Below, one piece after another: positions 1-25,491 of a stretch of DNA of 64,000 nt; position 1 is the stretch's first letter; the number at the start of each line of letters is the position of its first letter. Below the pieces are notes generated by a model. That model had not been told where the DNA came from and did no database searches. It saw only the letters and a list, made by a program, of their open reading frames with translations. Made by a program: the position numbers and the translations under genes. Source of the stretch: Bacteroidaceae bacterium (GTDB lineage Bacteria > Bacteroidota > Bacteroidia > Bacteroidales > Bacteroidaceae); contig JAGBBX010000011.1 in the NCBI GenBank assembly GCA_017938245.1, positions 124,001-188,000 of the forward strand. Reading direction: 5' to 3'.

Positions 1-214
1 CGACGCTCTGCGTATAGTAGCCGAGGGAGTAAACAAACTGAAACGTCCCGACACATCGACACTTGTCATCACACACTATCAACGACTGCTCGACTACATA
101 AAGCCCGACATTGTCCACGTACTATATAACGGACGCATTGTAAAGACAGCAGGCCCCGAACTTGCCCTTGAACTCGAGGAGCGCGGATACGACTGGATTA
201 AGAATCCCCAATAA
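1..214 (+). CDS. sufC: SufC, Fe-S assembly ATPase, 3' part only (mirror copy)
   Basis: The first complete codon begins at base 2 and the frame runs to TAA at 212-214. It encodes the last 70 residues of SufC (DALRIVAEG... to ...DWIKNPQ), identical to the end of the full gene at 17929-18684. The N-terminal part with the Walker A and signature motifs is outside the window, or does not exist if the left arm is an artefact. The stop is followed after 7 bases by the sufD start, the same spacing as in the right arm. As an isolated fragment it could not be a working ATPase. Confidence 0.9.
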
Positions 215-221
215 GAGAACA

Positions 222-1565
222 ATGAGCAACGAGAAAGAATATATCGATATTTTCGACAGCAACCGCCGTCTCATTGAAGCACCCTGCGCCCCACTGCTGA
301 ACAGAGAGCGCAGCAAGGCATTCGAGCTGTTCAAGAGCAACGGGTTCCCCAAAGATAGCGACGAAGAGTACCGCCACACAGCAGTAGGTAAACTATTTGC
401 CACCGACTATGGAATGAACCTCGGTCGTGTCGAGATGCAAGGCAATCCCGGCGAGTTCTTCAGCTGTGACGTACCCAATCTAAGGACACGTCAGGAGTAT
501 ATCCTCAACGACAGCTACTGCGAGCCCTCCGATAGCAAAGGAACCCTACCCGACGGTGTGCTTCTTGGCAGCCTAAACAAACTTGCCGAGAGCCATAGAA
601 CCCTCCTTGAGCCATATTACAACAAATTGGCAAAAGAGGGCGATAGCATAGCACAGTTTAACACCGCCTTTGTTCAGGATGGAATGTTGCTCTACGTACC
701 CCGCAACACCGAACTCACCGAGCCTATACAGCTTGTTACACTGCTACGCTCGAACATAGAGATGCTCAGCAACCGACGCCTGCTTATTATACTCGAAGAG
801 AATGCAAAAGCCAATCTGCTTGTGTGCGACCACTCATCGAATGAGAAAGCTACCCTCTCGACACAAGTTACCGAGATATTCCTGCACCCCGGCGCAAGCC
901 TCAACCTTGTAGAGATTGAGGAGACTGCTGGCAACAACAGCCGTCTGAGCCACCTTTTTGTAGAGCAAGATGCCAACAGCACCTTTACGCACAGTAATAT
1001 AACACTCACCAACGGTTTCACACGCAACAACACAAAGGTGACACTCGCAGGCAGCGGTGCCGAGGCGCACCTCGGCGGTCTTGCCATTTGCGATAAAAAG
1101 CAGCACACCGACAACCACACACTCGTTGACCACAAAGTTGGTCACTGCAACAGTAGCGAGCTATACAAATATATCCTCGACGAGGAGTCGACCGGAGTAT
1201 TTGCAGGTAAGATGCTCATACGTTCCAACGCACAGCACACCACCTCGCAGCAGACCAACCGCAACCTATGTCTCACAAAGTGCGCACGTATGTATGCACA
1301 GCCACAGCTCGAGATTTATGCCGACGATGTAAAGTGCAGTCACGGTTCAACAGTGGGACAACTCGACGAAAACGCACTTTTCTATATGCAACAGCGCGGT
1401 ATTCCCAAAGACGAAGCGCGCCACCTGCTTATGTTTGCCTTTGCCGGCGAAGTGATTGACAATATAACCATTGAAGCACTGCGCGACCGCCTGCATCTTC
1501 TTGTCGAGAAGCGTTTCCGCGGCGAACTTAACCGCTGCAAAGGCTGCGCACTGTGCAAGCAATAA
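222..1565 (+). CDS. sufD: SufD, Fe-S cluster scaffold subunit (mirror copy)
   Basis: A 447-residue SufD starting at MSNEKEY. An in-frame ATG at 162 lies inside sufC and is rejected, because 222 gives normal operon spacing and follows a purine-rich AAGAGAA stretch. SufD pairs with SufB and the ATPase SufC in the cytosolic SufBC2D scaffold that builds iron-sulfur clusters. The C-terminal half (about residues 170-420) has the beta-helix SufBD core. The protein ends in a Cys-rich RCKGCALCKQ tail. It sits 7 bases after sufC and 9 before sufS. It is identical to 16578-17921 and is probably a duplicate only on paper. Confidence 0.9.
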   Translation: MSNEKEYIDIFDSNRRLIEAPCAPLLNRERSKAFELFKSNGFPKDSDEEYRHTAVGKLFATDYGMNLGRVEMQGNPGEFFSCDVPNLRTRQEYILNDSYCEPSDSKGTLPDGVLLGSLNKLAESHRTLLEPYYNKLAKEGDSIAQFNTAFVQDGMLLYVPRNTELTEPIQLVTLLRSNIEMLSNRRLLIILEENAKANLLVCDHSSNEKATLSTQVTEIFLHPGASLNLVEIEETAGNNSRLSHLFVEQDANSTFTHSNITLTNGFTRNNTKVTLAGSGAEAHLGGLAICDKKQHTDNHTLVDHKVGHCNSSELYKYILDEESTGVFAGKMLIRSNAQHTTSQQTNRNLCLTKCARMYAQPQLEIYADDVKCSHGSTVGQLDENALFYMQQRGIPKDEARHLLMFAFAGEVIDNITIEALRDRLHLLVEKRFRGELNRCKGCALCKQ

Positions 1566-1574
1566 AAGAGTAAG

Positions 1575-2786
1575 ATGTTTAACCCCAACGAAATACGCGA
1601 GCAGTTTCCCATACTCTCCACACAGGTATATGGTAAACCCCTTGTCTACTTAGACAATGCCGCAACCACACAGAAGCCTCGCTGCGTCATCGACGCAATA
1701 AGCGAGGCCTACTGCACCATAAATGCCAATGTTCACCGAGGCGTACACCACCTATCACAGGTTGCTACCGAGCAGTTCGAGGAGGCACGACGCACCGTAC
1801 AGAATTTCATAAATGCCCCCCACAGCCGACAGGTGATATTCACGCGAGGTACCACCGAGAGCATAAACCTTGTAGCATCATCATTCGGCAACAGCTTCCT
1901 CAAAGAGGGCGACAGAGTGATAATATCCACTATGGAGCACCATAGTAATATTGTCCCCTGGCAACTGCTTCGCGACCGCATAGGAATAGAGATAAGAGTA
2001 ATTCCACTGCTCCCCGATGCAACCCTCGACGTAGAAGCCTACAGAGGCCTTTTTAACGAGCGTACCCGCTTGGTGAGCCTCACTCACGTCTCTAATGTGC
2101 TTGGATGCACCAACCCCGTAAAAGAGTGCATCGACATTGCACACAGCAACGGAGTACCTGTACTCATCGACGGTGCACAGAGCACCCCGCACACAAAGGT
2201 CGACGTACAGGCCTTAGACGCCGATTTCTTTGTATTCAGCGGACACAAGGTATATGCCCCTACAGGGATAGGAGTGCTATATGGCAAAGAGGAGTGGCTC
2301 GAGAAGATGCAACCCTATCACGGTGGCGGTGAGATGATACAGACCGTACGCTTCGAAAAGACCACCTACAACGAGCTACCCTATAAGTTCGAGGCAGGTA
2401 CCCCCGACTATGTCGGTGCAATAGCACTGGGAAAAGCCCTTGAATTTGTTCAACAGATAGGGATAGAGAATATTGCACGTCACGAGCGTATGCTCACACA
2501 GTATACCCTCGAGCGATTTGCCGAGATAGAGAATATGCGCATCATAGGAAAGCCCGACGGCTCGGCAGTGTCGTTTCTTGTGGGCGACATTCACCCCGCC
2601 GACCTCGGCACCCTGCTCGACCGCTTGGGAATAGCGATACGCACCGGACACCACTGCGCACAACCCCTTATCGACCATTTAGGAATCCCCGGAACCGTGC
2701 GTGCCTCATTTGCTCTATACAACACACGTGAGGAGGTAGACACCCTTGTCGAAGGCATTAAACGAGTGGCACGAATGTTTGCCTGA
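1575..2786 (+). CDS. sufS: SufS, cysteine desulfurase (mirror copy)
   Basis: A 403-residue group II PLP-dependent cysteine desulfurase. It takes sulfur from L-cysteine as an enzyme persulfide for cluster assembly. The PLP Schiff-base lysine is Lys225 in SGHK, and the persulfide cysteine is Cys361 in RTGHHCAQP, the short-loop arrangement typical of SufS. ATG at 1575 lies 9 bases past the sufD stop, so translation is likely coupled. No sufE or sufU gene follows; rnhB does. Identical mirror of 15357-16568. Confidence 0.92.
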   Translation: MFNPNEIREQFPILSTQVYGKPLVYLDNAATTQKPRCVIDAISEAYCTINANVHRGVHHLSQVATEQFEEARRTVQNFINAPHSRQVIFTRGTTESINLVASSFGNSFLKEGDRVIISTMEHHSNIVPWQLLRDRIGIEIRVIPLLPDATLDVEAYRGLFNERTRLVSLTHVSNVLGCTNPVKECIDIAHSNGVPVLIDGAQSTPHTKVDVQALDADFFVFSGHKVYAPTGIGVLYGKEEWLEKMQPYHGGGEMIQTVRFEKTTYNELPYKFEAGTPDYVGAIALGKALEFVQQIGIENIARHERMLTQYTLERFAEIENMRIIGKPDGSAVSFLVGDIHPADLGTLLDRLGIAIRTGHHCAQPLIDHLGIPGTVRASFALYNTREEVDTLVEGIKRVARMFA

Positions 2787-2810
2787 GAACACCCCAAAAA
2801 AGAATAGAAT

Positions 2811-3425
2811 ATGTTAAAACCATATATGCTCGCGGGAAGAGTGGAAGCAGGATGCGACGAAGCAGGTCGCGGATGCCTCGCAGGTGATGTCTATGCAGCA
2901 GCAGTAATCTTGCCCGAAGGGTTCGACAATGAGTTGCTGAACGACTCGAAGCAACTGAGTGAGTCGCAGCGTTACCATCTGCGCGAGATTATAGAGCGCG
3001 AAGCCACCGCGTGGGCTGTCGGCATTGTAACAGCAAAGGAGATTGACCGCATAAACATTCTGCGAGCATCAATCCTTGCAATGCACCGCGCCGTAGAACA
3101 GCTGAAAGTGCGTCCGAAACACCTGCTCATCGACGGCAATAAATTCAACCCCTACCCCGGGATAACACACACCACAGTGGTAAAGGGCGATGCCACCTAT
3201 ATGAGCATTGCCGCCGCCTCTATTCTTGCAAAGACCTATCGCGACGACTATATGCAGCGCCTTGCCGAGGAGTATCCGCAGTACGATTGGAGCAGCAACA
3301 AAGGCTACCCCACATCCAAGCATCGCGCCGCGATAAGAGAGTACGGGCCCACACCCTATCACAGAATGAGTTTCAACCTTCTTGGCGAAGAGCCCCGACA
3401 ACTATCATTCGATTTTGGCGAGTGA
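2811..3425 (+). CDS. rnhB: Ribonuclease HII (mirror copy)
   Basis: A 204-residue RNase HII, which nicks RNA-DNA hybrids and single ribonucleotides left in DNA. The N-terminal GCDEAGRG motif carries the catalytic pair Asp16-Glu17. Further metal-site acidic residues lie in LLIDGNK and KGDATY, followed by the family signature [10 protein letters not shown]. Length is normal. It starts 24 bases after sufS and may be transcribed with the suf operon. Mirror of 14718-15332. Confidence 0.92.
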
Positions 3426-3465
3426 CAGCAGACCGATAAAATACTAACCACAATAAACACATCAA

Positions 3466-6400
3466 ATGAAAAAAACTCTTATCCTTATGTCGGCGCTACT
3501 GCTATTGGCAGTAATCCCGACAGCGGCAAAGGTAACGCATCTGCTACCCAAGCCACAACAGATTACCGAGACAGGAGGTAACACATTTGCATTGGGACGC
3601 AAGGTAACCATTACCGACCCCACCAACTGCACAGCACTTACCAAGTTTTTTACCGCAAACGACTGCACCATCGGCGAGGGTGGCACACAGGTTAAAGTAA
3701 CCATTGTACCAAGCATCAGCGGTACCTACGACTACGAGCTCGACGGTTTCGATAACGAGGCTTACACTATCGCAGTCACCGAGAACGAGATTAACATTAC
3801 CGCAGTAAAACCCATTGGTGTGGTGCGTGCCGCACAGACACTGACACAGCTTGCCGAGGGTTACGAGGGAACAGCAGCAATAGAAGCAGTTAACATCAAA
3901 GATTGGGCGGCATTCAAACTGCGCGGATATATGCACGACGTTGGTCGCTCATTCATCAGTGTTCCCGAGCTTAAGAAACACATTGAATTGCTCTCGCGTT
4001 TCAAAGTAAACTGCTTCCACTGGCACTTTACCGAGAATCAGGCTTGGCGCTTGCAAATTAATGCCTATCCCAAGCTCACAAGCAGCGCATCGATGACCCG
4101 TTTCCCCGGAAAATTCTACACACAGGACGAGTGTAAGGAGGTTGCTGCATACGCCAAAGAGCACGGAATAACAATTATCCCCGAGATTGATATGCCCGGA
4201 CACAGCGAGGCTTTTGTACGTGCAATGGGATTTGATATGCAGACCGACAAGGGAGTCGAGGTTCTTAAGGTAGTCCTTGACGAGGTTGCCGCCCTCTTCC
4301 CCGACGCACCCTATATTCACATCGGTGCCGACGAGAAAGGTATCACCTACCCCAATTTCTTGGGTATTATGATAGACCACCTGCACAATAAAGGCAAGAA
4401 AGTAGTTGTTTGGAACCCTATTTCGGGAGTGAATGTAGGCAGCACAGGCGCCGATATGACACAGATGTGGAGTACCGCAGGCCGTCAGATAGATGGCAAA
4501 GCAAACATCGACTGCCGCTACAACTACACCAACCACTTCGACGTATTTGCCGACGTTGTAGGTATCTACCGCAGCAACATCTACTACGAACAGCAGGGTA
4601 ACAAGAACGTAGCCGGAACAATCTCGGCCTATTGGAACGACCGCAAGACACCCACCGAAGAGGATATCATCAAGCAGAATAATATGTATGCCAACGTAAT
4701 CGCAAGTGCCGAGCGCGCTTGGATTGGCGGTGGCAAGCAGTATATCGAGGTTGGCGGAACAACACTCCCCAACAGCGGCGACGAATACAACGAATTTGCC
4801 GATTGGGAGCGCCGTTTCCTCTTCCACAAGGCCAACTCATTGAAGAATGAGCCCATCCCCTACGTAAAGCAGACCAACGTACGTTGGAGAATTACCGACG
4901 CATTCCCCAACGGTGGTGATATGAATGCACAGTTTGCTCCCGAGACCGAGGGCCTGAAAGAGAGCTACACAGTAGATGGCGTGACCTACTCTACAGGTAT
5001 GGCAACAGGTGCCGGAATTTATCTGCGTCACACCTGGGGTTCTATTATCCCAACATACTTCAGCAATCCCCAACTGAACACAACAGCATACGCGTGGACA
5101 TACGTTTATAGCGAGACAGCACAGACAGTAGGAGCACAGATTGAGTTCCAGAACTACGGCCGCAGCGAGAAAGATACAGCCCCCGAGAAGGGCAAATGGG
5201 ATCGCAAGGGTTCACGCATCTGGCTCAACGACGAGGAGATTCTCCCCCCCACCTGGGACAACACAGGCAAGAGCATCAACAACGAGGTCGACCTGTTGAA
5301 CGAGAACTTCACAGCGCGTAAGCCTGTAGAGGTATCACTCAAAGCAGGATGGAACAAGGTATTCATCAAGCTCCCCTACGTAGCAGCAAACGGAGTACGC
5401 CTTAACAAATGGATGTTCACATTCGTGCTCACCGACCTCGACGGCAAGAATGCCGTTGACGGACTCATCTACTCGCCCAACAAATGCAAAGACGAGGCAT
5501 CCGAGCAGATTGCAGCCGGCATAAGCGAAGTAAAGAAATTCATTGCAAGTGTAACAGGCGAGAAGCCCGGATACTACAGCCCCGAGACAGCATCGGCTCT
5601 TAACGAGGTTATTGCAAAGATTGAAGCAACATTGGAGCAGGAGCTAAGCGCCGAAGAGCGCAACAAGCAGGCTGAGGAGCTGAACGATGCCCTCGATGCC
5701 TTTAAAGCCTACTACCCCACCACAGCGCTTAACCAACCAATGAGCAGCAATAGCAAGACAAGCTATTACTACACACTATGCACACCACTGCGCGAGAACC
5801 GCTATGCCACCTCAAAGGGTGCCGGCAACGATATGTACGGCGAAAAGAGTGTTACCAACGCATCGAAATGGAAATTTGTTGAGCGTGGCGACGGTACATA
5901 CAACATCGTAAACTACAGCGATGCATCGTACATATCACCATCGAGCAGCAATAACACAGCACTGCGTACGCAGGCATCAGCACCCACAAAAGGGTGGACG
6001 CTAAAGCCAGCCGATTCTCCCGGCTATTTCATTATTGTAAGCGGAACGACACAGTTCAACCAGACGACGTCGGGGCAAAGCTACAAGCTATTTAACTGGG
6101 GCAGTGGCACAAACACCACAGATGCTGGTTGCAAATATAGCATTGAACTTATCGGTACCGAGGGTGGCGATGGCGACATAAGCGCTATCGATTACACACC
6201 AAACTATACAGGAACAAAGGGCGGTGACCGCCCTTTGAACTTTATTAAGGTAGAGAGTCCTTCGTACGGAGCAAGCGAATACAAGCTAAGTAACAGTGAA
6301 CTTATACAGCTATATGTCGATGCCACACAGAGTGTGACACTAAAGGTTGGTGCCGGCGACGAAGTTTTCCCCACAGCAGGATACGGCGCAGTGTGGATGC

Positions 6401-9033
6401 ACGCCTACGTATATATCGATAAAGATGCAAACGGATTCACAGCAGGCATAGGTGCCGACGGATATACCCCCACCGACGACCTCGTGAGCTACTCGGCCTA
6501 CAATGCCAACCCCAATGGAGGCGGCCAGTGGCGCAACAGCGCGGGCGAGAACAACGGCAACAATACCGTAGTACTACCCTCGTTCAAGGCACCCGAGAAG
6601 AAAGGTAAATACCGTATGCGTTTCAAAATAGACTGGAACAGCATCGACCCCGCAGGATGCACCGATGCAGGCAACCGTCTCGACAACAACCGAGGCTCAA
6701 TAGTCGATGTCACACTCGAAGTAACCGACAAGCAGGAGGGAGTAGTTGAAGAGCTCTTCAGCAGCACCACCATAAGCGACAACAAGTTTGCACAAGGTAC
6801 AATATGGTACACTCTTCAGATAGGAGCCAACGGCTATGTAATTGACAACAACGGCACAAGCAACCACATTGCACTTGACGATGTAATATCGAGCGCTACC
6901 GACGACGCACAGTTGTGGGCATTCACAGGCGACAACACCAACGGATACCGTCTCTACAACAAGCAGGCAGGCGCCACAAAGGTTCTTGCAGCACCCACAA
7001 CAATGTCGGGCAACACAGGCAGCACAGCCTACCCCATTCTTGTAGACGCAAAAGCCGTTCCCAACGGTTACACCGACCTTTGGATATTTCAGACATCGAG
7101 CGACTTGGGCGATGGCGACACATATTACTATATGTACGAGAAAGGCTATCGCAACAACAAGGTAAACAACCGCGATAACAAACTCGCATTCTGGAATGGC
7201 GGTGCCGACGCAGGCTCTACCCTTAACATACAGTTTGCACAAGCCGAATATCCTATAAACACTCTCACCGGTAGCTGGACAGCATCTAACCAAGCCGGCA
7301 CTTGGGCATCGGTGTGGCAATCGACACAGGCACCCAAAATAAGCCTTATCGAGAGCCAGGGACGCAATAATATGGCAGCCTACAACGACAATGGCGATAT
7401 TCAGCTCTTTACCTGCCTTGCAGGAGCAGCTGTAAATGGTGTGCACACCGCGACATACAACATCAGCGCCGAGGAGGGTTATTCAATCGCAGGCTACCGC
7501 TTCGACTTTGTCAGCTCGGGAGCGACAGAGGTCAGCGTTACCCCCACAGGTGGCGAAAGCGTCACAGCAAACTCTGCTACAACGAAGAGCGTAGCAATAA
7601 CAGGTGTCGAGGAGCAGGTACTATCGTTCACCGTATCGGCAACAAGCAATATGTTTGCCAACACAAGCAATTTCTACGCAACAATAATACGCAGTTCACT
7701 CCCCGTTGAGCCATCACAGGAGATATTCACAACCAAGAAGGGAGCAATCCCCTACCGCATTCCCGCAATAGCATTGGCAAAGAACGGCGACCTAATTGCT
7801 GTTGCCGACTACCGTCACAGCGGTGCCGATATTGGCGTGGTGAACAAAGGCCGCATCGACCTACACGCGCGTATCAGCAACGACAATGGTGCAACGTGGA
7901 ACGAAAAATTCGCTATCGTCGAGGGCAAGGGTGCAAGCTCGCCCGACTTTATGCACGTTGGATTCGGCGACCCCTGTATCGTTGCCGACCGCGAGAGCGA
8001 CCGCGTGCTTGTACTCAGCTGCGCCGGTAACGTATCGTTCCAGGCAGGCAGCCGTAACAACCACCAGAATATTGCACGTTTCTACAGCGACGATAACGGT
8101 GCCAACTGGACAGAGCCCGAGGATATTGCCGAGAGCATCTACTCGCAGTTCGACAATAGCCCGATAGGTCCCGTGATGGCAATGTTCATCGGTTCGGGTA
8201 AGATACACCAAAGCCGCTACGTAAAAGTAAATGATTACTATCGCCTCTACTGCGCAGTGCTCGCAAAAGACCGCAGCGCCAACTACATCAACTTTGTTCT
8301 TTACAGCGACGATTTTGGCGGCAGTTGGAAAGTTCTTGGCACAACAAGCCGCGGACACTGCACAGGCGCCGACGAGCCAAAGGTCGAAGAGCTTCCCAAC
8401 GGCAATATCATCCTCAGCAGCCGCACCACAGGCGGCCGCCATTATAACATCTTCACATTCACCGATGCACAGAAGGCTCAAGGCTCTTGGGGCACACAGG
8501 CAACATCCAACAGTAACGTAAACGGTGTTGTAGCAGTAGGCAACTCAACCAACGGCGAGATACTTATCCTCCCCGTTGTTCGCAACGAAGACAATGCCGA
8601 GATGTGGATAGCACTGCAGTCGGTACCTTTCGGCAGCGGACGTAACAACGTAGGAATCTACTACAAAGAGCTTGCAAGTGAGGAGGACTACAACACGCCC
8701 GCCAACTTTGCAAAGGACTGGGACGGACGTCACCAGGCGTCGTACCTTCCCTCGGCCTACTCTACTATGTGCGTGCAGGCCGACGGCACAATAGCATTCC
8801 TGTACGAAGAGAGCACCTACGGAGCCGACTACACAATACAGTACAAAAATTACACTATTGAGACAATTACCGATGGCGCCTACTCGCTTCTTGGTGGCGG
8901 CAATGACACTGGTATCGAGAGCGTAACCGATAGCAAGACCCACAGCGGCATCTACGACCTGCAAGGCCGCAAGGTAGAGAATCCCGAGAAGGGAATCTAC
9001 ATTGTAAATGGCAAAAAGATTCTTGTAATGTAA
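3466..9033 (+). CDS. Secreted GH20 beta-hexosaminidase / GH33 sialidase fusion (mirror copy)
   Basis: A 1,855-residue exported two-enzyme protein. Residues 1-21 are a signal peptide. A GH20 N-terminal domain (about 22-145) precedes the GH20 barrel (about 150-440), with HWHFTENQ at 185-192 and the catalytic Asp289-Glu290 in HIGADE. A beta-sandwich (about 465-675), a FIVAR-like helical segment (about 685-750) and ricin-like or GEVED-like stretches follow. A GH33 sialidase (about 1415-1800) has YRIP at 1429-1432 and Asp boxes at 1471, 1541 and 1614. The last 40 residues form a Bacteroidales-type tail (YDLQGRKV...GIYIVNGKK). The likely job is removing terminal sialic acid and then GlcNAc/GalNAc from mucin-type glycans. 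Same protein as 9110-14677. Confidence 0.9.
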   Translation: MKKTLILMSALLLLAVIPTAAKVTHLLPKPQQITETGGNTFALGRKVTITDPTNCTALTKFFTANDCTIGEGGTQVKVTIVPSISGTYDYELDGFDNEAYTIAVTENEINITAVKPIGVVRAAQTLTQLAEGYEGTAAIEAVNIKDWAAFKLRGYMHDVGRSFISVPELKKHIELLSRFKVNCFHWHFTENQAWRLQINAYPKLTSSASMTRFPGKFYTQDECKEVAAYAKEHGITIIPEIDMPGHSEAFVRAMGFDMQTDKGVEVLKVVLDEVAALFPDAPYIHIGADEKGITYPNFLGIMIDHLHNKGKKVVVWNPISGVNVGSTGADMTQMWSTAGRQIDGKANIDCRYNYTNHFDVFADVVGIYRSNIYYEQQGNKNVAGTISAYWNDRKTPTEEDIIKQNNMYANVIASAERAWIGGGKQYIEVGGTTLPNSGDEYNEFADWERRFLFHKANSLKNEPIPYVKQTNVRWRITDAFPNGGDMNAQFAPETEGLKESYTVDGVTYSTGMATGAGIYLRHTWGSIIPTYFSNPQLNTTAYAWTYVYSETAQTVGAQIEFQNYGRSEKDTAPEKGKWDRKGSRIWLNDEEILPPTWDNTGKSINNEVDLLNENFTARKPVEVSLKAGWNKVFIKLPYVAANGVRLNKWMFTFVLTDLDGKNAVDGLIYSPNKCKDEASEQIAAGISEVKKFIASVTGEKPGYYSPETASALNEVIAKIEATLEQELSAEERNKQAEELNDALDAFKAYYPTTALNQPMSSNSKTSYYYTLCTPLRENRYATSKGAGNDMYGEKSVTNASKWKFVERGDGTYNIVNYSDASYISPSSSNNTALRTQASAPTKGWTLKPADSPGYFIIVSGTTQFNQTTSGQSYKLFNWGSGTNTTDAGCKYSIELIGTEGGDGDISAIDYTPNYTGTKGGDRPLNFIKVESPSYGASEYKLSNSELIQLYVDATQSVTLKVGAGDEVFPTAGYGAVWMHAYVYIDKDANGFTAGIGADGYTPTDDLVSYSAYNANPNGGGQWRNSAGENNGNNTVVLPSFKAPEKKGKYRMRFKIDWNSIDPAGCTDAGNRLDNNRGSIVDVTLEVTDKQEGVVEELFSSTTISDNKFAQGTIWYTLQIGANGYVIDNNGTSNHIALDDVISSATDDAQLWAFTGDNTNGYRLYNKQAGATKVLAAPTTMSGNTGSTAYPILVDAKAVPNGYTDLWIFQTSSDLGDGDTYYYMYEKGYRNNKVNNRDNKLAFWNGGADAGSTLNIQFAQAEYPINTLTGSWTASNQAGTWASVWQSTQAPKISLIESQGRNNMAAYNDNGDIQLFTCLAGAAVNGVHTATYNISAEEGYSIAGYRFDFVSSGATEVSVTPTGGESVTANSATTKSVAITGVEEQVLSFTVSATSNMFANTSNFYATIIRSSLPVEPSQEIFTTKKGAIPYRIPAIALAKNGDLIAVADYRHSGADIGVVNKGRIDLHARISNDNGATWNEKFAIVEGKGASSPDFMHVGFGDPCIVADRESDRVLVLSCAGNVSFQAGSRNNHQNIARFYSDDNGANWTEPEDIAESIYSQFDNSPIGPVMAMFIGSGKIHQSRYVKVNDYYRLYCAVLAKDRSANYINFVLYSDDFGGSWKVLGTTSRGHCTGADEPKVEELPNGNIILSSRTTGGRHYNIFTFTDAQKAQGSWGTQATSNSNVNGVVAVGNSTNGEILILPVVRNEDNAEMWIALQSVPFGSGRNNVGIYYKELASEEDYNTPANFAKDWDGRHQASYLPSAYSTMCVQADGTIAFLYEESTYGADYTIQYKNYTIETITDGAYSLLGGGNDTGIESVTDSKTHSGIYDLQGRKVENPEKGIYIVNGKKILVM

Positions 9034-9058
9034 ATTTGCTTGGTATATATAGACGTTT

Positions 9059-9084
9059 CGAGGTTGGCAATATTGCCAACCTCG
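9059..9084. terminator. Terminator-like hairpin at the palindrome centre
   Basis: The stem cgaggttggc (9059-9068) pairs with gccaacctcg (9075-9084) around a six-base loop, aatatt. The hairpin lies 25 bases after the stop codons of both facing glycosidase copies. This is where an intrinsic terminator would be expected, and its loop contains the exact symmetry point 9071/9072. No T-run can be judged, because beyond the stem the sequence is only the mirror of the other arm. The native sequence that normally follows it is missing. Confidence 0.6.
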
Positions 9085-9109
9085 AAACGTCTATATATAC
9101 CAAGCAAAT

Positions 9110-12100
9110 TTACATTACAAGAATCTTTTTGCCATTTACAATGTAGATTCCCTTCTCGGGATTCTCTACCTTGCGGCCTTGCAGGTCGTAGATGCCGCTG
9201 TGGGTCTTGCTATCGGTTACGCTCTCGATACCAGTGTCATTGCCGCCACCAAGAAGCGAGTAGGCGCCATCGGTAATTGTCTCAATAGTGTAATTTTTGT
9301 ACTGTATTGTGTAGTCGGCTCCGTAGGTGCTCTCTTCGTACAGGAATGCTATTGTGCCGTCGGCCTGCACGCACATAGTAGAGTAGGCCGAGGGAAGGTA
9401 CGACGCCTGGTGACGTCCGTCCCAGTCCTTTGCAAAGTTGGCGGGCGTGTTGTAGTCCTCCTCACTTGCAAGCTCTTTGTAGTAGATTCCTACGTTGTTA
9501 CGTCCGCTGCCGAAAGGTACCGACTGCAGTGCTATCCACATCTCGGCATTGTCTTCGTTGCGAACAACGGGGAGGATAAGTATCTCGCCGTTGGTTGAGT
9601 TGCCTACTGCTACAACACCGTTTACGTTACTGTTGGATGTTGCCTGTGTGCCCCAAGAGCCTTGAGCCTTCTGTGCATCGGTGAATGTGAAGATGTTATA
9701 ATGGCGGCCGCCTGTGGTGCGGCTGCTGAGGATGATATTGCCGTTGGGAAGCTCTTCGACCTTTGGCTCGTCGGCGCCTGTGCAGTGTCCGCGGCTTGTT
9801 GTGCCAAGAACTTTCCAACTGCCGCCAAAATCGTCGCTGTAAAGAACAAAGTTGATGTAGTTGGCGCTGCGGTCTTTTGCGAGCACTGCGCAGTAGAGGC
9901 GATAGTAATCATTTACTTTTACGTAGCGGCTTTGGTGTATCTTACCCGAACCGATGAACATTGCCATCACGGGACCTATCGGGCTATTGTCGAACTGCGA
10001 GTAGATGCTCTCGGCAATATCCTCGGGCTCTGTCCAGTTGGCACCGTTATCGTCGCTGTAGAAACGTGCAATATTCTGGTGGTTGTTACGGCTGCCTGCC
10101 TGGAACGATACGTTACCGGCGCAGCTGAGTACAAGCACGCGGTCGCTCTCGCGGTCGGCAACGATACAGGGGTCGCCGAATCCAACGTGCATAAAGTCGG
10201 GCGAGCTTGCACCCTTGCCCTCGACGATAGCGAATTTTTCGTTCCACGTTGCACCATTGTCGTTGCTGATACGCGCGTGTAGGTCGATGCGGCCTTTGTT
10301 CACCACGCCAATATCGGCACCGCTGTGACGGTAGTCGGCAACAGCAATTAGGTCGCCGTTCTTTGCCAATGCTATTGCGGGAATGCGGTAGGGGATTGCT
10401 CCCTTCTTGGTTGTGAATATCTCCTGTGATGGCTCAACGGGGAGTGAACTGCGTATTATTGTTGCGTAGAAATTGCTTGTGTTGGCAAACATATTGCTTG
10501 TTGCCGATACGGTGAACGATAGTACCTGCTCCTCGACACCTGTTATTGCTACGCTCTTCGTTGTAGCAGAGTTTGCTGTGACGCTTTCGCCACCTGTGGG
10601 GGTAACGCTGACCTCTGTCGCTCCCGAGCTGACAAAGTCGAAGCGGTAGCCTGCGATTGAATAACCCTCCTCGGCGCTGATGTTGTATGTCGCGGTGTGC
10701 ACACCATTTACAGCTGCTCCTGCAAGGCAGGTAAAGAGCTGAATATCGCCATTGTCGTTGTAGGCTGCCATATTATTGCGTCCCTGGCTCTCGATAAGGC
10801 TTATTTTGGGTGCCTGTGTCGATTGCCACACCGATGCCCAAGTGCCGGCTTGGTTAGATGCTGTCCAGCTACCGGTGAGAGTGTTTATAGGATATTCGGC
10901 TTGTGCAAACTGTATGTTAAGGGTAGAGCCTGCGTCGGCACCGCCATTCCAGAATGCGAGTTTGTTATCGCGGTTGTTTACCTTGTTGTTGCGATAGCCT
11001 TTCTCGTACATATAGTAATATGTGTCGCCATCGCCCAAGTCGCTCGATGTCTGAAATATCCAAAGGTCGGTGTAACCGTTGGGAACGGCTTTTGCGTCTA
11101 CAAGAATGGGGTAGGCTGTGCTGCCTGTGTTGCCCGACATTGTTGTGGGTGCTGCAAGAACCTTTGTGGCGCCTGCCTGCTTGTTGTAGAGACGGTATCC
11201 GTTGGTGTTGTCGCCTGTGAATGCCCACAACTGTGCGTCGTCGGTAGCGCTCGATATTACATCGTCAAGTGCAATGTGGTTGCTTGTGCCGTTGTTGTCA
11301 ATTACATAGCCGTTGGCTCCTATCTGAAGAGTGTACCATATTGTACCTTGTGCAAACTTGTTGTCGCTTATGGTGGTGCTGCTGAAGAGCTCTTCAACTA
11401 CTCCCTCCTGCTTGTCGGTTACTTCGAGTGTGACATCGACTATTGAGCCTCGGTTGTTGTCGAGACGGTTGCCTGCATCGGTGCATCCTGCGGGGTCGAT
11501 GCTGTTCCAGTCTATTTTGAAACGCATACGGTATTTACCTTTCTTCTCGGGTGCCTTGAACGAGGGTAGTACTACGGTATTGTTGCCGTTGTTCTCGCCC
11601 GCGCTGTTGCGCCACTGGCCGCCTCCATTGGGGTTGGCATTGTAGGCCGAGTAGCTCACGAGGTCGTCGGTGGGGGTATATCCGTCGGCACCTATGCCTG
11701 CTGTGAATCCGTTTGCATCTTTATCGATATATACGTAGGCGTGCATCCACACTGCGCCGTATCCTGCTGTGGGGAAAACTTCGTCGCCGGCACCAACCTT
11801 TAGTGTCACACTCTGTGTGGCATCGACATATAGCTGTATAAGTTCACTGTTACTTAGCTTGTATTCGCTTGCTCCGTACGAAGGACTCTCTACCTTAATA
11901 AAGTTCAAAGGGCGGTCACCGCCCTTTGTTCCTGTATAGTTTGGTGTGTAATCGATAGCGCTTATGTCGCCATCGCCACCCTCGGTACCGATAAGTTCAA
12001 TGCTATATTTGCAACCAGCATCTGTGGTGTTTGTGCCACTGCCCCAGTTAAATAGCTTGTAGCTTTGCCCCGACGTCGTCTGGTTGAACTGTGTCGTTCC

Positions 12101-14677
12101 GCTTACAATAATGAAATAGCCGGGAGAATCGGCTGGCTTTAGCGTCCACCCTTTTGTGGGTGCTGATGCCTGCGTACGCAGTGCTGTGTTATTGCTGCTC
12201 GATGGTGATATGTACGATGCATCGCTGTAGTTTACGATGTTGTATGTACCGTCGCCACGCTCAACAAATTTCCATTTCGATGCGTTGGTAACACTCTTTT
12301 CGCCGTACATATCGTTGCCGGCACCCTTTGAGGTGGCATAGCGGTTCTCGCGCAGTGGTGTGCATAGTGTGTAGTAATAGCTTGTCTTGCTATTGCTGCT
12401 CATTGGTTGGTTAAGCGCTGTGGTGGGGTAGTAGGCTTTAAAGGCATCGAGGGCATCGTTCAGCTCCTCAGCCTGCTTGTTGCGCTCTTCGGCGCTTAGC
12501 TCCTGCTCCAATGTTGCTTCAATCTTTGCAATAACCTCGTTAAGAGCCGATGCTGTCTCGGGGCTGTAGTATCCGGGCTTCTCGCCTGTTACACTTGCAA
12601 TGAATTTCTTTACTTCGCTTATGCCGGCTGCAATCTGCTCGGATGCCTCGTCTTTGCATTTGTTGGGCGAGTAGATGAGTCCGTCAACGGCATTCTTGCC
12701 GTCGAGGTCGGTGAGCACGAATGTGAACATCCATTTGTTAAGGCGTACTCCGTTTGCTGCTACGTAGGGGAGCTTGATGAATACCTTGTTCCATCCTGCT
12801 TTGAGTGATACCTCTACAGGCTTACGCGCTGTGAAGTTCTCGTTCAACAGGTCGACCTCGTTGTTGATGCTCTTGCCTGTGTTGTCCCAGGTGGGGGGGA
12901 GAATCTCCTCGTCGTTGAGCCAGATGCGTGAACCCTTGCGATCCCATTTGCCCTTCTCGGGGGCTGTATCTTTCTCGCTGCGGCCGTAGTTCTGGAACTC
13001 AATCTGTGCTCCTACTGTCTGTGCTGTCTCGCTATAAACGTATGTCCACGCGTATGCTGTTGTGTTCAGTTGGGGATTGCTGAAGTATGTTGGGATAATA
13101 GAACCCCAGGTGTGACGCAGATAAATTCCGGCACCTGTTGCCATACCTGTAGAGTAGGTCACGCCATCTACTGTGTAGCTCTCTTTCAGGCCCTCGGTCT
13201 CGGGAGCAAACTGTGCATTCATATCACCACCGTTGGGGAATGCGTCGGTAATTCTCCAACGTACGTTGGTCTGCTTTACGTAGGGGATGGGCTCATTCTT
13301 CAATGAGTTGGCCTTGTGGAAGAGGAAACGGCGCTCCCAATCGGCAAATTCGTTGTATTCGTCGCCGCTGTTGGGGAGTGTTGTTCCGCCAACCTCGATA
13401 TACTGCTTGCCACCGCCAATCCAAGCGCGCTCGGCACTTGCGATTACGTTGGCATACATATTATTCTGCTTGATGATATCCTCTTCGGTGGGTGTCTTGC
13501 GGTCGTTCCAATAGGCCGAGATTGTTCCGGCTACGTTCTTGTTACCCTGCTGTTCGTAGTAGATGTTGCTGCGGTAGATACCTACAACGTCGGCAAATAC
13601 GTCGAAGTGGTTGGTGTAGTTGTAGCGGCAGTCGATGTTTGCTTTGCCATCTATCTGACGGCCTGCGGTACTCCACATCTGTGTCATATCGGCGCCTGTG
13701 CTGCCTACATTCACTCCCGAAATAGGGTTCCAAACAACTACTTTCTTGCCTTTATTGTGCAGGTGGTCTATCATAATACCCAAGAAATTGGGGTAGGTGA
13801 TACCTTTCTCGTCGGCACCGATGTGAATATAGGGTGCGTCGGGGAAGAGGGCGGCAACCTCGTCAAGGACTACCTTAAGAACCTCGACTCCCTTGTCGGT
13901 CTGCATATCAAATCCCATTGCACGTACAAAAGCCTCGCTGTGTCCGGGCATATCAATCTCGGGGATAATTGTTATTCCGTGCTCTTTGGCGTATGCAGCA
14001 ACCTCCTTACACTCGTCCTGTGTGTAGAATTTTCCGGGGAAACGGGTCATCGATGCGCTGCTTGTGAGCTTGGGATAGGCATTAATTTGCAAGCGCCAAG
14101 CCTGATTCTCGGTAAAGTGCCAGTGGAAGCAGTTTACTTTGAAACGCGAGAGCAATTCAATGTGTTTCTTAAGCTCGGGAACACTGATGAATGAGCGACC
14201 AACGTCGTGCATATATCCGCGCAGTTTGAATGCCGCCCAATCTTTGATGTTAACTGCTTCTATTGCTGCTGTTCCCTCGTAACCCTCGGCAAGCTGTGTC
14301 AGTGTCTGTGCGGCACGCACCACACCAATGGGTTTTACTGCGGTAATGTTAATCTCGTTCTCGGTGACTGCGATAGTGTAAGCCTCGTTATCGAAACCGT
14401 CGAGCTCGTAGTCGTAGGTACCGCTGATGCTTGGTACAATGGTTACTTTAACCTGTGTGCCACCCTCGCCGATGGTGCAGTCGTTTGCGGTAAAAAACTT
14501 GGTAAGTGCTGTGCAGTTGGTGGGGTCGGTAATGGTTACCTTGCGTCCCAATGCAAATGTGTTACCTCCTGTCTCGGTAATCTGTTGTGGCTTGGGTAGC
14601 AGATGCGTTACCTTTGCCGCTGTCGGGATTACTGCCAATAGCAGTAGCGCCGACATAAGGATAAGAGTTTTTTTCAT
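9110..14677 (-). CDS. Secreted GH20 beta-hexosaminidase / GH33 sialidase fusion (native arm)
   Basis: The 1,855-residue fusion enzyme in the arm continuous with the rest of the chromosome. Start is ATG at 14677, with a Lys-Lys plus hydrophobic signal peptide cut near residue 21. The order is GH20 domain 2, GH20 barrel (catalytic Asp289-Glu290), beta-sandwich, FIVAR-like helices, two ricin-like/GEVED-like carbohydrate-binding regions, GH33 propeller with YRIP and three Asp boxes, then a C-terminal anchoring or secretion tail. GH20 enzymes release terminal beta-GlcNAc/GalNAc; GH33 enzymes release sialic acid. Combining both on one exported chain suits sialylated mucin or ganglioside-type glycans; the substrate is inferred. 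It lies 40 bases after rnhB with no SusC/SusD gene nearby. The true downstream neighbour is hidden by the fold-back. Confidence 0.92.
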   Translation of the reverse strand: MKKTLILMSALLLLAVIPTAAKVTHLLPKPQQITETGGNTFALGRKVTITDPTNCTALTKFFTANDCTIGEGGTQVKVTIVPSISGTYDYELDGFDNEAYTIAVTENEINITAVKPIGVVRAAQTLTQLAEGYEGTAAIEAVNIKDWAAFKLRGYMHDVGRSFISVPELKKHIELLSRFKVNCFHWHFTENQAWRLQINAYPKLTSSASMTRFPGKFYTQDECKEVAAYAKEHGITIIPEIDMPGHSEAFVRAMGFDMQTDKGVEVLKVVLDEVAALFPDAPYIHIGADEKGITYPNFLGIMIDHLHNKGKKVVVWNPISGVNVGSTGADMTQMWSTAGRQIDGKANIDCRYNYTNHFDVFADVVGIYRSNIYYEQQGNKNVAGTISAYWNDRKTPTEEDIIKQNNMYANVIASAERAWIGGGKQYIEVGGTTLPNSGDEYNEFADWERRFLFHKANSLKNEPIPYVKQTNVRWRITDAFPNGGDMNAQFAPETEGLKESYTVDGVTYSTGMATGAGIYLRHTWGSIIPTYFSNPQLNTTAYAWTYVYSETAQTVGAQIEFQNYGRSEKDTAPEKGKWDRKGSRIWLNDEEILPPTWDNTGKSINNEVDLLNENFTARKPVEVSLKAGWNKVFIKLPYVAANGVRLNKWMFTFVLTDLDGKNAVDGLIYSPNKCKDEASEQIAAGISEVKKFIASVTGEKPGYYSPETASALNEVIAKIEATLEQELSAEERNKQAEELNDALDAFKAYYPTTALNQPMSSNSKTSYYYTLCTPLRENRYATSKGAGNDMYGEKSVTNASKWKFVERGDGTYNIVNYSDASYISPSSSNNTALRTQASAPTKGWTLKPADSPGYFIIVSGTTQFNQTTSGQSYKLFNWGSGTNTTDAGCKYSIELIGTEGGDGDISAIDYTPNYTGTKGGDRPLNFIKVESPSYGASEYKLSNSELIQLYVDATQSVTLKVGAGDEVFPTAGYGAVWMHAYVYIDKDANGFTAGIGADGYTPTDDLVSYSAYNANPNGGGQWRNSAGENNGNNTVVLPSFKAPEKKGKYRMRFKIDWNSIDPAGCTDAGNRLDNNRGSIVDVTLEVTDKQEGVVEELFSSTTISDNKFAQGTIWYTLQIGANGYVIDNNGTSNHIALDDVISSATDDAQLWAFTGDNTNGYRLYNKQAGATKVLAAPTTMSGNTGSTAYPILVDAKAVPNGYTDLWIFQTSSDLGDGDTYYYMYEKGYRNNKVNNRDNKLAFWNGGADAGSTLNIQFAQAEYPINTLTGSWTASNQAGTWASVWQSTQAPKISLIESQGRNNMAAYNDNGDIQLFTCLAGAAVNGVHTATYNISAEEGYSIAGYRFDFVSSGATEVSVTPTGGESVTANSATTKSVAITGVEEQVLSFTVSATSNMFANTSNFYATIIRSSLPVEPSQEIFTTKKGAIPYRIPAIALAKNGDLIAVADYRHSGADIGVVNKGRIDLHARISNDNGATWNEKFAIVEGKGASSPDFMHVGFGDPCIVADRESDRVLVLSCAGNVSFQAGSRNNHQNIARFYSDDNGANWTEPEDIAESIYSQFDNSPIGPVMAMFIGSGKIHQSRYVKVNDYYRLYCAVLAKDRSANYINFVLYSDDFGGSWKVLGTTSRGHCTGADEPKVEELPNGNIILSSRTTGGRHYNIFTFTDAQKAQGSWGTQATSNSNVNGVVAVGNSTNGEILILPVVRNEDNAEMWIALQSVPFGSGRNNVGIYYKELASEEDYNTPANFAKDWDGRHQASYLPSAYSTMCVQADGTIAFLYEESTYGADYTIQYKNYTIETITDGAYSLLGGGNDTGIESVTDSKTHSGIYDLQGRKVENPEKGIYIVNGKKILVM

Positions 14678-14717
14678 TTGATGTGTTTATTGTGGTTAGT
14701 ATTTTATCGGTCTGCTG

Positions 14718-15332
14718 TCACTCGCCAAAATCGAATGATAGTTGTCGGGGCTCTTCGCCAAGAAGGTTGAAACTCATTCTGTGATAGGGTGTGGGCCCGT
14801 ACTCTCTTATCGCGGCGCGATGCTTGGATGTGGGGTAGCCTTTGTTGCTGCTCCAATCGTACTGCGGATACTCCTCGGCAAGGCGCTGCATATAGTCGTC
14901 GCGATAGGTCTTTGCAAGAATAGAGGCGGCGGCAATGCTCATATAGGTGGCATCGCCCTTTACCACTGTGGTGTGTGTTATCCCGGGGTAGGGGTTGAAT
15001 TTATTGCCGTCGATGAGCAGGTGTTTCGGACGCACTTTCAGCTGTTCTACGGCGCGGTGCATTGCAAGGATTGATGCTCGCAGAATGTTTATGCGGTCAA
15101 TCTCCTTTGCTGTTACAATGCCGACAGCCCACGCGGTGGCTTCGCGCTCTATAATCTCGCGCAGATGGTAACGCTGCGACTCACTCAGTTGCTTCGAGTC
15201 GTTCAGCAACTCATTGTCGAACCCTTCGGGCAAGATTACTGCTGCTGCATAGACATCACCTGCGAGGCATCCGCGACCTGCTTCGTCGCATCCTGCTTCC
15301 ACTCTTCCCGCGAGCATATATGGTTTTAACAT
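14718..15332 (-). CDS. rnhB: Ribonuclease HII
   Basis: A 204-residue RNase HII that removes misincorporated ribonucleotides and RNA primers from DNA in the cytosol. Asp16-Glu17 in GCDEAGRG plus the Asp residues in LLIDGNK and KGDATY make up the metal site; the [10 protein letters not shown] signature follows. ATG at 15332 lies 24 bases downstream of the sufS stop on the same strand, so read-through from the suf operon is likely. This is the native-arm copy; the identical plus-strand copy is at 2811-3425. Confidence 0.94.
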
Positions 15333-15356
15333 ATTCTATTCTTTTTTGGGGTGTTC

Positions 15357-16568
15357 TCAGGCAAACATTCGTGCCACTCGTTTAATGCCTTCGACAAGGG
15401 TGTCTACCTCCTCACGTGTGTTGTATAGAGCAAATGAGGCACGCACGGTTCCGGGGATTCCTAAATGGTCGATAAGGGGTTGTGCGCAGTGGTGTCCGGT
15501 GCGTATCGCTATTCCCAAGCGGTCGAGCAGGGTGCCGAGGTCGGCGGGGTGAATGTCGCCCACAAGAAACGACACTGCCGAGCCGTCGGGCTTTCCTATG
15601 ATGCGCATATTCTCTATCTCGGCAAATCGCTCGAGGGTATACTGTGTGAGCATACGCTCGTGACGTGCAATATTCTCTATCCCTATCTGTTGAACAAATT
15701 CAAGGGCTTTTCCCAGTGCTATTGCACCGACATAGTCGGGGGTACCTGCCTCGAACTTATAGGGTAGCTCGTTGTAGGTGGTCTTTTCGAAGCGTACGGT
15801 CTGTATCATCTCACCGCCACCGTGATAGGGTTGCATCTTCTCGAGCCACTCCTCTTTGCCATATAGCACTCCTATCCCTGTAGGGGCATATACCTTGTGT
15901 CCGCTGAATACAAAGAAATCGGCGTCTAAGGCCTGTACGTCGACCTTTGTGTGCGGGGTGCTCTGTGCACCGTCGATGAGTACAGGTACTCCGTTGCTGT
16001 GTGCAATGTCGATGCACTCTTTTACGGGGTTGGTGCATCCAAGCACATTAGAGACGTGAGTGAGGCTCACCAAGCGGGTACGCTCGTTAAAAAGGCCTCT
16101 GTAGGCTTCTACGTCGAGGGTTGCATCGGGGAGCAGTGGAATTACTCTTATCTCTATTCCTATGCGGTCGCGAAGCAGTTGCCAGGGGACAATATTACTA
16201 TGGTGCTCCATAGTGGATATTATCACTCTGTCGCCCTCTTTGAGGAAGCTGTTGCCGAATGATGATGCTACAAGGTTTATGCTCTCGGTGGTACCTCGCG
16301 TGAATATCACCTGTCGGCTGTGGGGGGCATTTATGAAATTCTGTACGGTGCGTCGTGCCTCCTCGAACTGCTCGGTAGCAACCTGTGATAGGTGGTGTAC
16401 GCCTCGGTGAACATTGGCATTTATGGTGCAGTAGGCCTCGCTTATTGCGTCGATGACGCAGCGAGGCTTCTGTGTGGTTGCGGCATTGTCTAAGTAGACA
16501 AGGGGTTTACCATATACCTGTGTGGAGAGTATGGGAAACTGCTCGCGTATTTCGTTGGGGTTAAACAT
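15357..16568 (-). CDS. sufS: SufS, cysteine desulfurase
   Basis: A 403-residue class V aminotransferase-fold enzyme that supplies sulfur for Fe-S assembly. PLP-binding Lys225 (SGHK) and persulfide Cys361 (TGHHCAQP) are both present, and the length is normal for SufS. It is the last gene of the suf set (sufB-C-D-S), 9 bases after sufD. In other bacteria SufS needs a SufE or SufU partner, and none is encoded beside it here. Native-arm copy; mirror at 1575-2786. Confidence 0.95.
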   Translation of the reverse strand: MFNPNEIREQFPILSTQVYGKPLVYLDNAATTQKPRCVIDAISEAYCTINANVHRGVHHLSQVATEQFEEARRTVQNFINAPHSRQVIFTRGTTESINLVASSFGNSFLKEGDRVIISTMEHHSNIVPWQLLRDRIGIEIRVIPLLPDATLDVEAYRGLFNERTRLVSLTHVSNVLGCTNPVKECIDIAHSNGVPVLIDGAQSTPHTKVDVQALDADFFVFSGHKVYAPTGIGVLYGKEEWLEKMQPYHGGGEMIQTVRFEKTTYNELPYKFEAGTPDYVGAIALGKALEFVQQIGIENIARHERMLTQYTLERFAEIENMRIIGKPDGSAVSFLVGDIHPADLGTLLDRLGIAIRTGHHCAQPLIDHLGIPGTVRASFALYNTREEVDTLVEGIKRVARMFA

Positions 16569-16577
16569 CTTACTCTT

Positions 16578-17921
16578 TTATTGCTTGCACAGTGCGCAGC
16601 CTTTGCAGCGGTTAAGTTCGCCGCGGAAACGCTTCTCGACAAGAAGATGCAGGCGGTCGCGCAGTGCTTCAATGGTTATATTGTCAATCACTTCGCCGGC
16701 AAAGGCAAACATAAGCAGGTGGCGCGCTTCGTCTTTGGGAATACCGCGCTGTTGCATATAGAAAAGTGCGTTTTCGTCGAGTTGTCCCACTGTTGAACCG
16801 TGACTGCACTTTACATCGTCGGCATAAATCTCGAGCTGTGGCTGTGCATACATACGTGCGCACTTTGTGAGACATAGGTTGCGGTTGGTCTGCTGCGAGG
16901 TGGTGTGCTGTGCGTTGGAACGTATGAGCATCTTACCTGCAAATACTCCGGTCGACTCCTCGTCGAGGATATATTTGTATAGCTCGCTACTGTTGCAGTG
17001 ACCAACTTTGTGGTCAACGAGTGTGTGGTTGTCGGTGTGCTGCTTTTTATCGCAAATGGCAAGACCGCCGAGGTGCGCCTCGGCACCGCTGCCTGCGAGT
17101 GTCACCTTTGTGTTGTTGCGTGTGAAACCGTTGGTGAGTGTTATATTACTGTGCGTAAAGGTGCTGTTGGCATCTTGCTCTACAAAAAGGTGGCTCAGAC
17201 GGCTGTTGTTGCCAGCAGTCTCCTCAATCTCTACAAGGTTGAGGCTTGCGCCGGGGTGCAGGAATATCTCGGTAACTTGTGTCGAGAGGGTAGCTTTCTC
17301 ATTCGATGAGTGGTCGCACACAAGCAGATTGGCTTTTGCATTCTCTTCGAGTATAATAAGCAGGCGTCGGTTGCTGAGCATCTCTATGTTCGAGCGTAGC
17401 AGTGTAACAAGCTGTATAGGCTCGGTGAGTTCGGTGTTGCGGGGTACGTAGAGCAACATTCCATCCTGAACAAAGGCGGTGTTAAACTGTGCTATGCTAT
17501 CGCCCTCTTTTGCCAATTTGTTGTAATATGGCTCAAGGAGGGTTCTATGGCTCTCGGCAAGTTTGTTTAGGCTGCCAAGAAGCACACCGTCGGGTAGGGT
17601 TCCTTTGCTATCGGAGGGCTCGCAGTAGCTGTCGTTGAGGATATACTCCTGACGTGTCCTTAGATTGGGTACGTCACAGCTGAAGAACTCGCCGGGATTG
17701 CCTTGCATCTCGACACGACCGAGGTTCATTCCATAGTCGGTGGCAAATAGTTTACCTACTGCTGTGTGGCGGTACTCTTCGTCGCTATCTTTGGGGAACC
17801 CGTTGCTCTTGAACAGCTCGAATGCCTTGCTGCGCTCTCTGTTCAGCAGTGGGGCGCAGGGTGCTTCAATGAGACGGCGGTTGCTGTCGAAAATATCGAT
17901 ATATTCTTTCTCGTTGCTCAT
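16578..17921 (-). CDS. sufD: SufD, Fe-S cluster scaffold subunit
   Basis: A 447-residue SufD, partner of SufB in the SufBC2D scaffold. The MSNEKEY start at 17921 was chosen over an upstream in-frame ATG at 17981, because the latter would overlap sufC by more than 50 bases. The N-terminal helical part (about residues 1-150) is followed by the beta-helix core common to SufB and SufD. The protein ends with RCKGCALCKQ, a three-cysteine tail whose role is unknown. Spacing is 7 bases after sufC and 9 before sufS. Mirror at 222-1565. Confidence 0.93.
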   Translation of the reverse strand: MSNEKEYIDIFDSNRRLIEAPCAPLLNRERSKAFELFKSNGFPKDSDEEYRHTAVGKLFATDYGMNLGRVEMQGNPGEFFSCDVPNLRTRQEYILNDSYCEPSDSKGTLPDGVLLGSLNKLAESHRTLLEPYYNKLAKEGDSIAQFNTAFVQDGMLLYVPRNTELTEPIQLVTLLRSNIEMLSNRRLLIILEENAKANLLVCDHSSNEKATLSTQVTEIFLHPGASLNLVEIEETAGNNSRLSHLFVEQDANSTFTHSNITLTNGFTRNNTKVTLAGSGAEAHLGGLAICDKKQHTDNHTLVDHKVGHCNSSELYKYILDEESTGVFAGKMLIRSNAQHTTSQQTNRNLCLTKCARMYAQPQLEIYADDVKCSHGSTVGQLDENALFYMQQRGIPKDEARHLLMFAFAGEVIDNITIEALRDRLHLLVEKRFRGELNRCKGCALCKQ

Positions 17922-17928
17922 TGTTCTC

Positions 17929-18684
17929 TTATTGGGGATTCTTAATCCAGTCGTATCCGCGCTCCTCGAGTTCAAGGGCAAGTTCGGGGCCTGCTGTCTT
18001 TACAATGCGTCCGTTATATAGTACGTGGACAATGTCGGGCTTTATGTAGTCGAGCAGTCGTTGATAGTGTGTGATGACAAGTGTCGATGTGTCGGGACGT
18101 TTCAGTTTGTTTACTCCCTCGGCTACTATACGCAGAGCGTCGATGTCGAGACCCGAGTCGGTCTCGTCGAGGATGCTCAGCGTTGGCTCAAGCATTGCCA
18201 TCTGGAATATTTCGTTGCGCTTTTTCTCGCCACCGCTGAAACCTTCGTTCACCGAGCGATTGGCAAGCTTGCTGTCGAGGTTGACAAGAGCGCGCTTCTC
18301 GCGCATCAACTTCAGGAAGTCGCCTGCGCTCATTGCGGGTTCGCCAAGCGCTTCGCGTTTGGCGTTGATGGCAGCGCGCATAAAATTGGTCATACTTACG
18401 CCCGAAATCTCTACGGGATATTGGAACGAGAGGAATATTCCTGCGTGGCTGCGCTCCTCGGGACTAAGTGCCAGAAGGTCTTGTCCCTTGTATATAACCT
18501 CGCCCTCGGTTACGGTGTATGCAGGGTGTCCTACAAGCACATTGCTGAGTGTGCTCTTTCCCGAACCGTTGGGACCCATTATGGCGTGTACCTCTCCGGG
18601 TTTTACGGTGAGATTTATTCCTTTAAGTATCTCTTTGCCATCTATCGTGGCGTGAAGATTTTTTATTTCTATAAGGTTTTCCAT
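17929..18684 (-). CDS. sufC: SufC, Fe-S assembly ATPase
   Basis: A 251-residue ABC-type ATPase of the cytosolic SufBC2D complex; ATP binding drives the SufB-SufD rearrangement during cluster building. Walker A is GPNGSGKST with Lys43, the signature is FSGGEKKR, and Walker B with its glutamate follows in SILDETDSGLD; all are intact. It lies 18 bases after sufB and 7 before sufD. The last 214 bases belong to the right palindrome arm and are repeated at 1-214; the first 542 are unique. This shows that the right arm is the native one. Confidence 0.96.
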   Translation of the reverse strand: MENLIEIKNLHATIDGKEILKGINLTVKPGEVHAIMGPNGSGKSTLSNVLVGHPAYTVTEGEVIYKGQDLLALSPEERSHAGIFLSFQYPVEISGVSMTNFMRAAINAKREALGEPAMSAGDFLKLMREKRALVNLDSKLANRSVNEGFSGGEKKRNEIFQMAMLEPTLSILDETDSGLDIDALRIVAEGVNKLKRPDTSTLVITHYQRLLDYIKPDIVHVLYNGRIVKTAGPELALELEERGYDWIKNPQ

Positions 18685-18702
18685 TTTCCTTTCCTGTTTT
18701 TA

Positions 18703-20151: not shown

Positions 20152-20154
20152 CTA

Positions 20155-20634: not shown

Positions 20635-20685
20635 ATAATCGTGCTTATTAAGGTGTTTTTTTTGTGCTGGTAACTTTGTATATAA

Positions 20686-20722
20686 GGGCAAGGGTACTCT
20701 CATCGGGACAGTACCCTTGCCC
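20686..20722 (-). terminator. Long hairpin between infB and cvpA
   Basis: A 13-bp perfect stem, gggcaagggtact (20686-20698) with agtacccttgccc (20710-20722), around an 11-base loop. It starts 10 bases after the infB stop. On the minus strand only a weak T-stretch (TTATATAC) follows, so it may be a partial terminator, an RNA-processing site or a 3'-stabilising structure that adjusts cvpA-suf expression relative to infB. Confidence 0.6.
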
Positions 20723-20731
20723 CATTTGTTT

Positions 20732-24978: not shown

Positions 24979-24979
24979 T

Positions 24980-25447: not shown

Positions 25448-25491
25448 AGGCTGTTTTGTAGAAGATATATTGTGTGTGAATATATTGTATG

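Follow-up and report, generated by a model that had tools for sequence, protein, structure and literature searches.

With a probability of about 0.95, the mirror image found at the start of the analysed window, a stretch of 64,000 nucleotides, was concluded to be a sequencing or assembly artefact; the likeliest cause is that the path folded back on itself at a palindromic terminator. The window corresponds to C59:78143-142142 on the minus strand of contig C59, which belongs to a draft genome of 63 contigs and 2,700,810 bp (completeness 85.95, contamination 6.91). Window positions 1-9071 and 9072-18142 were exact reverse complements with 0 mismatches and 0 spacer over 9071 bp per arm, the centre lying between 9071 and 9072. 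This identity of the arms is far beyond chance. The mirror image extended well past the window: all 266,142 bp of C59 were identical to the reverse complement of the same contig, with 0 mismatches and 0 N, and the contig consists of a 133,071-bp sequence and its mirror image (2 x 133,071 bp). The features of the mirrored part are given below in window coordinates, with protein domains determined by Pfam.

1..9071, plus strand: mirror copy, the visible part of the second half of C59 (C59:133072-142142), which continues outside the window to C59:266142.
9072..64000, minus strand: visible part of the first half of C59 (C59:78143-133071); the rest, C59:1-78142, lies outside the window.
9030..9113, no strand: turning point, a zero-spacer palindrome centred at 9071/9072.
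9110..14677, minus strand: ORF of 1855 aa with GH20 hexosaminidase domains and a C-terminal BNR/sialidase-like domain (Pfam); mirrored at 3466-9033, plus strand.
14718..15332, minus strand: rnhB, ribonuclease HII (Pfam); mirrored at 2811-3425, plus strand.
15357..16568, minus strand: class-V aminotransferase (Pfam), a sufS-type cysteine desulfurase by its position in the suf cluster; mirrored at 1575-2786, plus strand.
16578..17981, minus strand: sufD, SufBD core (Pfam); mirrored at 162-1565, plus strand.
17929..18684, minus strand: intact sufC-type ABC ATPase (Pfam), a single ORF of 251 aa; its mirror copy is cut by the window edge only.

In the preliminary description, the palindrome was placed at positions 1..18142. 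The mirror image itself, with identical arms, no mismatch and no spacer, was confirmed, whereas the limit at 18142 was not. The position 18142/18143 is the place where the mirror copy exits the window and contains no junction, and a query running 158 bp beyond the claimed end of the right arm matched at 100% in both orientations. Window position 1, which was to be checked as a possible contig end, is not one: the mirror copy carries on in C59 past it, up to 266142. The right arm had been described as meeting unique sequence in the middle of sufC and as being the native arm for that reason. The supposed junction is the window edge, sufC is whole, and neither half of C59 joins anything else in the contig; the native-arm idea was therefore dropped. 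The argument built on suf copies breaking off inside sufC falls together with it.

The 1855-aa fusion also gave a weak ricin-B-like lectin match below the cut-off. Relatives of this protein, full length or partial, are encoded by 111 stretches of the genome contigs searched and come mostly from gut Bacteroidales, judging by the titles of 80 of the 111.

The turning point was located 38 bp beyond the stop codon of the glycosidase ORF in either mirror copy. The nearest relatives among the genome contigs were Bacteroidaceae drafts from the ruminant gut, L047 from yak rectum with 90% nucleotide identity and L048 from goat colon with 86% over the last 0.5 kb (L047 is the same sequence as L028 of G040, and L048 the same as L029 of G008). 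In both, a hairpin with a loop of 5 bases stands behind the glycosidase gene; a T-rich stretch and then non-mirrored sequence come next. Thus a looped, terminator-like hairpin occurs at the turning point in two relatives, while the native sequence of C59 is masked by the fold. The centre of C59 folds as a perfect hairpin by construction and its energy is no independent evidence. A spacerless palindrome native to C59 is an assumption made by analogy with the relatives, whose hairpins are looped. By exact match, the 13-mer at the centre was present at the centre only. When the 1,586 bp past the gene in L047 were sought in this bin, the best 40 of 83 candidates gave 14 matches, all of them short repeats (at most 77 bases), which counts against the fold-back. 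An exact inverted 100-mer was found in none of the 80 relatives' loci inspected out of 111 matching loci in the genome contigs; many of the 80 have short flanks, and the negative is a weak one.

In a de Bruijn graph, one set of nodes serves both strands. If a palindromic (k+1)-mer stood at the end of a path and the continuation was missing, the path would enter its own reverse strand and halt at its start. The assembly path of a 133,071-bp stretch of Bacteroidales chromosome would in this way have reversed at the short terminator hairpin after the glycosidase gene and then retraced its own reverse strand to the repeat where it had started. The palindromic edge may stem from a natural hairpin of at least 22 bp without spacer, met at a low k, or from hairpin-primed fold-back chimeric reads; the true continuation would have been dropped from the graph or be absent from the bin. 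That palindromic k-mers make de Bruijn graphs harder is stated in the available part of PMC3656733.

The behaviour of such a path was followed in a toy de Bruijn graph made from the final 20 kb of the half-contig. Once the continuation was taken away, a 24-bp palindrome at k=21 yielded a single unitig, itself palindromic and exactly double in length; passed on to k=141, this unitig persisted. A 42-bp palindrome deprived of its continuation produced the doubled unitig at k=21, 29 and 39. No fold-back was seen with the 24-bp palindrome at k=29, 39 and 141, and without low-k input neither of the two palindromes produced one at k=141. If the continuation was kept, the hairpin interrupted the path, even at k=141 when the low-k contig served as input; the fold-back therefore requires the assumption that the continuation was lost. 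The doubled stretch makes up 5.2% of the non-redundant assembly, a share that agrees with the contamination value of 6.91% given for the draft. C59 was the sole palindromic contig among the 62 readable contigs compared by their ends, and that an error of this kind was not repeated in the bin counts against the fold-back. The 2,594-bp contig C50 was rejected as a second palindromic contig since it is all N and its match is N against N.

Both ends of C59 lie within a dispersed repeat, and the end shares exactly 141 bp with the end of another contig (C36). C59 stops on both sides at a graph branch point, the repeat, and overlaps other contig ends there by k bases. The terminal 300 bp of the 63 contigs, 62 of them readable (C50 being all N), were compared, and 17 end pairs sharing at least 25 terminal bases were found. 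Exactly 141 bases were shared by 13 pairs, 140 by one and 100 by one; the remaining two were the self-pairs of C59 and of the all-N C50. Two of the 13 pairs are C36 against either end of C59 and count as one event. Five exact-141 dovetails were detected and no longer non-self dovetail among the terminal 300 bp of the readable contigs; many dovetails shorter than 141 were derived from the dispersed repeat. Some inverted 25-mers were common to the two ends of C17, C25, C41, C43 and C49, and these were taken for copies of dispersed repeats.

Overlaps of exactly k at branch points are the typical output of de Bruijn assemblers, and 141 is the highest k in the default list of MEGAHIT. The dominance of 141 among the contig-end overlaps is as expected of a de Bruijn assembler at k=141, and we infer that MEGAHIT or a similar assembler with k up to 141 was used. 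L047 and L048 bear RGIG names, which we take to belong to the ruminant-gut study that used MEGAHIT and IDBA-UD. The assembly of ruminant-gut samples by MEGAHIT v1.1.1 and IDBA-UD is described in the accessible portion of PMC8199421.

The dispersed repeat was also found at window 32106-32244, in addition to C59:1-141 and its mirror. It is about 139-200 bp long and contains the inverted segments GATGTTTTTTGG and CCAAAAAACATC. Among the matches listed, the repeat occurred in about 30 places of the draft genome, in copies 82-100% alike, and at many contig ends. With 50 matches listed and the best 40 of 93 candidates scored, 32 of the 50 had 58 bp or more in common with C59:1-141, and 25 of the 32 were at most 300 bp from a contig end; the 32 include both ends of C59 and one internal mirror pair of the same contig. 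In appearance the repeat resembles a small mobile or REP-like element without coding capacity, and many of the breaks between contigs are due mainly to it.

Graph fold-back and hairpin-primed chimeric reads are two alternative routes to the inverted junction. By the second route the artefact would have been produced in the library: strands ending in the terminator hairpin would have paired with themselves or with like strands and been extended, and reads with the inverted junction would have been assembled. This origin is possible but was held to be distinctly less probable than not, and its share is contained in the probability assigned to the artefact as a whole. The hairpin at the turning point of the two relatives is consistent with it. 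Such reads would also supply palindromic 142-mers at k=141 directly, which the natural 24-42 bp palindromes did not do in the toy graph. Chimeric reads at natural inverted repeats and palindromes are reported for sonicated and enzymatic libraries in the available text of PMC10908179. The inverted junctions of the PDSM model presented there likewise arise at natural hairpins; in contrast to C59, the model concerns human capture sequencing and, as far as the same text goes, single reads and not assembled contigs. On the other hand, fold-back reads would be expected in the minority; the graph would in that case contain the true continuation as well, and the contig would be interrupted by it.

The frequency of spacerless palindromes bears on the first route, the graph fold-back. 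Six zero-spacer perfect palindromes of 26-52 bp (half-length 13-26) were found in the 133 kb of the first half of C59:

C59:15852, 21961, 48902, 59907, 73123 and 112459: zero-spacer palindromes, the last one at window 29671-29696.

One of the six directly follows a tRNA gene, a place at which one would look for a terminator. Two neighbouring tRNA genes, at window 29698-29771 and 29809-29882 on the minus strand, had equal Rfam scores. The rate of zero-spacer palindromes in the C59 half was 45 per Mb compared to 5.4 per Mb (8 in 1,483,328 bp) in the 80 loci of relatives, which is about 8-fold higher, and ten Markov copies of the half contained none comparable. Three of the six sites were looked up in four relatives, and alignments were obtained for 48902 with two relatives and for 73123 with one. 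The same palindrome was present in 0 of these 3 alignments. A clear looped hairpin of other sequence was seen at the aligned site in L267 and L273, and a less clear one in L266. At site 21961, the single locus tried, on one strand, yielded nothing that could be aligned. The six palindromes could represent terminators of unusual perfection or else minor errors of the assembly; with the excess over the relatives, some of them may themselves be such errors. If native, they would make palindromes holding palindromic 22-mers ordinary in this organism.

A very recent real inverted duplication in the chromosome, with arms of 133 kb, was considered very improbable. The perfect sequence identity of the halves would agree with it, and a real perfect inverted duplication would likewise be collapsed by the graph of a short-read assembly and come out in the same form. 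Since the output would be the same, the doubled length is no evidence of two copies, and the perfect identity would not be evidence of a recent event. The arms of an inverted duplication would end at different unique flanks; instead, the two halves stop at one and the same base of the dispersed repeat, where the contig itself ends. Also opposed to a duplication are the zero spacer and the position of the centre at a terminator. Long spacerless palindromes are unstable in bacteria. Among the matches listed from 44 genomes, including this one (the best 6 candidates per genome), the suf part was seen twice in no congener. GH20 relatives occurred several times per genome among the matches listed, as expected for a large family. 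A second partial match of 367 bp (80%) to the rnhB part was observed about 1.8 kb from the first in one congener (G002:C12:12303-15824 and 17655-18021).

Even less probable is that the centre represents the covalently closed hairpin end of a linear replicon, where sequencing rounded the end and went back. Such an end would be expected to give exactly one palindromic junction. However, the telomere resolvase (protelomerase) family PF16684, the one family searched, had no match in this genome, an absence which is not firm in a draft about 86% complete; in the control search, one of 14 named genomes (Synechococcus elongatus) matched. Genes of chromosomal type are present on the stretch, namely infB- and nusA-like translations recognised by eye and the suf and rnhB genes determined by Pfam, and the same place is interior sequence in the two relatives. 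A true inverted junction in the cell, formed where a terminator hairpin without spacer in a gut Bacteroidales caps the chromosome end or gives rise to a palindromic amplification intermediate, is hardly to be expected.

The recent inverted duplication and the hairpin-ended replicon, both named as alternatives in the preliminary description, gained no positive support, with PF16684, the one family searched, without a match and no flank within C59 that differs between the halves. Its preferred explanation, a fold-back chimera or a graph path turning through a palindromic k-mer, agrees with the whole-contig palindrome, the 141-bp overlaps, the hairpin of the relatives and a published precedent.

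This precedent is a study of palindromes in M. bovis genomes, in which the assembler was reportedly SPAdes. According to the available part of PMC9455707, 81 whole-contig palindromes were found and judged a likely assembly error, the assembler was run in careful mode followed by Pilon polishing, and sequences with confirmed palindromes were taken out. As in those cases, the entire C59 is one palindrome and its genes are doubled as reverse complements. In comparison with the M. bovis palindromes, as far as they are described in that part of the source, C59 differs in being a 266-kb contig with 141-bp end overlaps and a located turning point. C59 is the same phenomenon of whole-contig palindromes as in that portion of the M. 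bovis report, in another draft genome.

The doubling of C59 adds 133 kb to the draft genome and makes single-copy genes look duplicated. The comparison of a contig with its own reverse complement detects such fold-back cases simply. Surveys that count gene copies or examine synteny or palindromes could be led astray by doubling of this type. The apparent gene doubling in C59 is to be disregarded as almost certainly an assembly error at a small hairpin, and its value is that of a caution.
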